Position numbers and translations under genes: made by a program
Notes under the pieces: model-generated
Database searches by the model: none
What the model was told of the DNA's origin: nothing
What the model saw: only the letters and a program-made list of their open reading frames with translations
From: Candidatus Poribacteria bacterium
GTDB lineage: Bacteria; Poribacteria; WGA-4E; GCA-2687025
Assembly: GCA_016866785.1 (NCBI GenBank)
Contig: VGLH01000027.1
Span: 1 to 36,179 of the forward strand
Length of the DNA: 36,179 nt
Direction of reading: 5' to 3'
Part shown: positions 7,949 to 7,970 of the stretch, one piece after another
How positions within the stretch are numbered: position 1 is the first letter of the stretch
How the letters are laid out: every line of letters begins with the position of its first letter

Positions 7949-7970
<22 letters not shown>
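7488..7970 (+). CDS. tadA: tRNA-specific adenosine deaminase TadA
   Basis: A 160-residue zinc deaminase that converts A34 to inosine in tRNA-Arg(ACG). The zinc site is complete: His55 and Glu57 in AHAEIVAL, Cys85 and Cys88 in PCAMCAGAI. VPVGAVIV (27-34) is the usual substrate-site strand. The start is the GTG at 7488, with GGAGG 5 nt upstream; an in-frame ATG at 7422 would add 22 residues and lies inside the promoter. The length is normal for TadA. The final seven codons and the TGA stop (7968-7970) lie within the tRNA-Ser gene that begins at 7949, so the protein tail is encoded by tRNA acceptor and D-arm sequence. Confidence 0.93.

Follow-up and report, generated by a model that had tools for sequence, protein, structure and literature searches.

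The last 22 nt of tadA, the gene for tRNA adenosine(34) deaminase, are also the first 22 nt of tRNA-Ser(CGA) on the same strand of the window (the whole 36,179-nucleotide stretch of DNA analysed here). The overlap is real, it recurs among relatives and it belongs to a type already known; it is best read as tolerated compaction of an mRNA–tRNA unit. We consider it probable that tadA and tRNA-Ser(CGA) form a cotranscribed unit in which conserved tRNA bases serve as the stop codon, and that the overlap is tolerated and is not a dedicated switch. The evidence comprises the junction itself, its distribution over the window's phylum, comparable junctions elsewhere in the same genome, and the relation of the tRNA to the substrate of the enzyme.

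The tadA–tRNA-Ser(CGA) junction

The features of the junction are collected in Table 1. In agreement with the original prediction, the sequence, ARAGORN and the reading frame all place 22 nt in common between tadA and the tRNA, and the TGA of tadA is confirmed as the conserved D-arm TGA (within GGCTGA) of the tRNA. Positions 7941–7970 read CTT CAA GCG GAG AGG TGC GAG AGC GGC TGA, the third base of the GCG codon being the first base of the tRNA. When the window was scanned with Rfam at gathering threshold, no tRNA was reported, though the genome search with RF00005 returned this one at 50.7 bits, and we take its absence from the scan as a filter effect. The T, G and A that form the stop are identical in 11 of 11 aligned tRNAs, whether overlapped by a gene or not. 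Because the tRNA-Ser sequence fixes this stop, any frame entering tRNA-Ser in this phase ends at nucleotide 22, and the stop of tadA is a by-product of the tRNA sequence.

Table 1. Coordinates of the tadA–tRNA-Ser(CGA) junction and its surroundings in the window
Feature	Position	Strand	Remarks
Glycogen-debranching-enzyme gene, divergent, upstream of tadA	5321–7342	−	
Intergenic stretch, glycogen-debranching-enzyme gene to tadA	7343–7487	+	divergent neighbour; no sigma-70 consensus match
tadA, tRNA adenosine(34) deaminase	7488–7970	+	probable start GTG 7488, stop TGA 7968–7970; 160 codons plus stop
Predicted RNase P cleavage point, after 7948	7948/7949	+	placed from the tRNA coordinates
tRNA-Ser(CGA), class II, long variable arm, CCA encoded	7949–8038	+	ARAGORN; RF00005 50.7 bits; aligned with relatives
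Overlap of tadA 3′ end and tRNA-Ser(CGA) 5′ end, 22 nt	7949–7970	+	encodes last residues ERCESG plus stop
TGA, tadA stop codon and D-arm nucleotides 20–22 of tRNA-Ser(CGA)	7968–7970	+	

Judged by its sequence, the protein encoded upstream of the tRNA is TadA. Its zinc-binding and catalytic motifs, HAE and PCAMC, are intact when aligned to the structures 1z3a and 3ocq, and its best matches among solved structures include these tRNA adenosine deaminases (3ocq at 5e-39, 1z3a at 2e-38). Two Pfam families, PF14437 (MafB19-deam) and PF00383 (dCMP_cyt_deam_1), score above cutoff, while the NCBIfam TadA equivalog NF008113, the top-scoring family by a wide margin, reaches 149.4 bits against a cutoff of 150. 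The same genome encodes, on contig C5, tRNA-Arg(ACG), which is the tRNA that TadA is known to edit in bacteria. The open reading frame begins at ATG 7422, which is probably too early; GTG 7488, preceded by ggaggcga, appears the likelier start, since the protein of a relative (locus L003) begins MFYPTE, which matches the residues from GTG 7488. Two further tRNA-modification genes, miaA (10711–11658) and mnmE (32952–34346), also lie in the window. Within the 3′ end of tadA, 30 nt ahead of the tRNA, a terminator-like hairpin is followed by T6 (7904–7926); its resemblance to a terminator is probably due to chance, because the T run encodes a conserved Phe-Phe.

Recurrence of the overlap and its genomic setting

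At 72 tadA loci from 71 genomes of the window's phylum we measured how far the tadA stop lies from tRNA-Ser(CGA). The distance is exactly −22 in six genomes, three of family f1 (G000, which is the window's own genome and a draft of 291 contigs, G001 and G003) and three of family f8 (G030, G066 and G067). In one more f1 genome, G005, tadA shares 14 nt with the tRNA in a different frame, as read by eye on a contig that ends inside the tRNA, and in a single draft genome of family f3 (G011, L152:477–567) the tadA frame crosses the whole of tRNA-Ser(CGA) to reach a stop 7 nt beyond the tRNA. In 60 relatives the two genes are separated by 0 to 1216 nt with no overlap, among them G002 of family f1 at +15; the distance is as small as 0–7 nt in several families. 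The idea that the overlap is a requirement is therefore not borne out, the tadA frame ending ahead of the tRNA in these 60 relatives. In a TadA tree family f1 forms one clade (support 100/99), and f8 stands apart from it, beside f2, with weaker support; from this separation it follows that the overlap has several independent origins or was repeatedly lost.

A trivial explanation would be an error of assembly or annotation, with the true tadA stopping short of the tRNA. The 291 contigs of the draft speak for it, but an identical overlap in identical phase is found in the five other −22 genomes (G001, G003, G030, G066 and G067), with spacers that differ in both sequence and length, and we regard this explanation as refuted, its remaining probability being close to nil. 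In the aligned junctions of the −22 genomes the spacer from the Phe-Phe codons to the tRNA measures 14, 20 or 23 nt, with the phase identical throughout. Such variation in length with retention of a single phase is what would be expected if an early stop were the sole constraint. That f1 and f8 both retain an identical 22-nt overlap could alternatively be due to selection for the overlap itself.

The tadA gene sits in a tRNA cluster that is conserved throughout the phylum, in the order Ser(UGA)-Ser(GCU)-Arg(ACG)-tadA-Ser(CGA)-Ala(CGC)-Ser(GGA) (loci L003, L004, L006–L031 and L101–L151). The cluster comprises six tRNA genes, four for serine (UGA, GCU, CGA and GGA) and one each for Ala(CGC) and Arg(ACG), and tadA directly follows the latter. 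tRNA-Arg(ACG) lies upstream of tadA on the same strand at 68 of the 72 loci, tRNA-Ser(CGA) lies downstream at 68 of 72, and 56 of 72 have all six cluster tRNAs. The window's genome has the cluster split, with Ser(UGA)-Ser(GCU)-Arg(ACG) on C5, tadA-Ser(CGA) in the window, and Ser(GGA) and Ala(CGC) elsewhere. At the end of C5 (L080:8182–8677) the half-cluster Ser(UGA)-Ser(GCU)-Arg(ACG) is followed, in place of tadA, by unrelated DNA with short repeats and the start of a reading frame, after which the contig ends. An insertion element at tRNA-Arg(ACG) was considered, the frame looking integrase-like by eye, but the 49 aa available gave no Pfam or NCBIfam match; a repeat of the tRNA-Arg 3′ end upstream of tadA was looked for in this genome and not found. 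Two relatives, G004 (f1; C63, L232) and G007 (C71, L229), keep Ser(UGA)-Ser(GCU)-Arg(ACG) with no tadA-like frame in the surrounding DNA that was retrieved, and neither genome gave a strong TadA match, which may reflect draft gaps.

Outside the phylum, sampled through loci returned by other searches, tRNA-Ser(CGA) is the next gene after tadA in Nocardia (+46, L157), Nonomuraea (+10, L159), Tsukamurella (+46, L166) and a Delongbacteria genome (+0, L037), so that the pairing is common to distant phyla. At most other named loci inspected, which came from Bacillota, Pseudomonadota, Bacteroidota, Planctomycetota, Nitrospirota and others, no tRNA-Ser(CGA) follows tadA. The inspected stretch of the Escherichia coli K-12 tRNA-Arg(ACG) array holds no tadA, and a TadA search in phages and viral contigs gave no tRNA adjoining any of the five loci inspected.

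Junctions of this type are not confined to tadA. We examined the 48 tRNA contexts found in the window's genome for same-strand frames entering the tRNA, and, besides tadA, two such frames encode recognised families. The ispE gene (L072 on C46), whose product is a GHMP kinase showing features of IspE sequences, overlaps tRNA-Gln(UUG) by 10 nt. A DUF502 gene (L075 on C108) overlaps tRNA-Pro(CGG) to the same extent, and in both cases the stop is a TAG formed by tRNA nucleotides 8–10. Both overlaps are present again in G001. Six other frames running into or through tRNAs (L051, L055, L052, L064, L084 and L086) match no Pfam family and were taken as spurious GC-rich open reading frames. Among 138 frames that run into tRNAs in this genome, the stop encountered first is most often a TAG ending at nucleotide 10 (26 frames). 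Very tight mRNA–tRNA junctions are the rule at ispE/tRNA-Gln: the ispE stop directly abuts the tRNA, with a gap of 0, in 16 of the 28 relatives that have ispE followed by tRNA-Gln. The occurrence of the ispE and DUF502 overlaps alongside that of tadA in one genome makes overlap a general feature of some mRNA–tRNA junctions there.

Transcription, processing and the question of control

No sigma-70-like promoter was found on either strand between 7300 and 8400, with the proviso that this consensus may not suit a GC-rich host. Because no such site lies at the junction and the upstream gene is divergent, tadA and tRNA-Ser(CGA) would most simply be read as one transcript, that is, as an mRNA–tRNA operon, and the tadA promoter would have to sit in the intergenic stretch of Table 1 unless tadA is read from elsewhere. 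Quite unlikely, in our estimate, is that the tRNA has its own promoter in the 3′ region of tadA, with little joint transcript and the overlap a positional accident. Many single bacterial tRNA genes have their own promoters, and a separate promoter is plausible in those relatives with more than 900 nt between the two genes. The negative promoter scan is weak evidence against it, given a GC-rich host whose promoter type may differ, and the adjacency of tadA and the tRNA at gaps of 0–7 nt in several families also argues against it. A tadA-internal promoter of a type outside the sigma-70 scan could nonetheless feed the tRNA separately. That the tRNA copy is unexpressed is unlikely, as it is the sole tRNA-Ser(CGA) found in the genome, is intact, and is conserved.

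For the cotranscribed unit that we favour, the following course may be proposed. Translation of tadA would terminate at the TGA that doubles as D-arm bases, and the transcript could be translated into TadA up to the moment at which RNase P cleaves the 5′ end of the tRNA. As foreseen in the original prediction, such a cut would strip the stop codon from that copy of the tadA RNA, leaving 153 complete codons and 2 nt, and the nonstop mRNA could then be cleared by tmRNA. The genome holds both an RNase P RNA (271 bits) and a tmRNA (158 bits). As to its origin, the overlap may have come about when the 3′ end of tadA lost a stop of its own, or never needed one, the TGA at nucleotides 20–22 and the TAG at nucleotides 8–10 acting as ready-made stops for genes that abut a tRNA; its retention would be neutral.

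The same geometry was proposed to set translation of tadA in competition with tRNA maturation, in that folding of the tRNA and RNase P cutting would limit TadA output. A ribosome at the tadA stop would cover both the D arm and the acceptor arm, RNA cut by RNase P would be without a stop, the genome has a tmRNA able to clear nonstop complexes, the phase of the overlap is kept across spacer changes in f1 and f8, and the same logic has been put forward for the published analogue selB/selC (Mukai hypothesis, PMC8124441). Against this regulatory trade-off, the overlap lacks conservation, the tRNA of 60 relatives beginning 0 to 1216 nt beyond the tadA stop; it is not specific to tadA, since ispE and the DUF502 gene overlap tRNAs too; and cleavage would spare 153 of the 160 codons and with them the complete catalytic core. 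The geometry allows a competition, but nothing beyond the geometry points to one, and we hold such a trade-off to be unlikely. RNase P-timed control, in which the speed of tRNA-Ser(CGA) maturation would set TadA output in f1, f3 (with the nested arrangement of G011) and f8, we hold to be very improbable; if true, the maturation of one tRNA would time the supply of an RNA-editing enzyme whose gene shares a tRNA cluster with the substrate tRNA.

A functional tie between the tRNA-editing enzyme and the tRNA that its gene overlaps is not supported. The anticodon CGA carries C34 and not A34, for which reason tRNA-Ser(CGA) is not a substrate for A34-to-I editing; the real substrate is encoded on another contig. 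Feedback via the substrate through tRNA-Ser(CGA) is ruled out by C34, and with no evident feedback the case for the trade-off is weakened further.

Precedents and meaning

Mohanty and Kushner are said to have described in 2008 E. coli mRNA–tRNA transcription units such as secG-leuU, with joint transcripts and RNase P processing. The proposed tadA unit resembles secG-leuU in that a tRNA 3′ of a protein gene would be released by RNase P from a polycistronic transcript. The closest precedent for the overlap is selB/selC, where tRNA-Sec is nested in, or partly overlaps, the 3′ end of selB with a patchy distribution, and for which Mukai (2021) advanced an RNase P/nonstop hypothesis (PMC8124441). 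Both cases have a same-strand tRNA at the 3′ end of a translation-related gene and the stop of the upstream gene inside the tRNA, both occur as partial overlap and as whole nesting, both are scattered among relatives, and the same hypothesis applies to both. Like an overlap of the selB/selC type, that of tadA recurs (six genomes at −22, one at −14 and one with the whole tRNA nested). They differ in that tRNA-Sec is the partner of the protein, SelB binding Sec-tRNA, whereas tRNA-Ser(CGA) is not a TadA substrate, and in that the unrelated ispE and DUF502 genes overlap tRNAs in the same manner as tadA. Mitochondrial gene/tRNA overlaps, for instance in Armadillidium vulgare (cited in PMC8124441), are similar in that the gene end is common with a tRNA excised from the transcript, but they belong to compact organelle genomes, whereas the genome here is a multi-megabase bacterial one. 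Our limited literature search found no report of a tadA/tRNA overlap or of a tadA/tRNA-Arg cluster.

The tadA junction adds clear bacterial cases, from three families in one phylum, to the short list of stop codons supplied by a tRNA, and offers a simple reason for them in the conserved TAG and TGA available to tRNA-abutting genes. Annotation pipelines that forbid gene–tRNA overlap would truncate such genes. Separate from the overlap, and more interesting, is the conserved placement of tadA beside the gene for tRNA-Arg(ACG), the substrate of its product.
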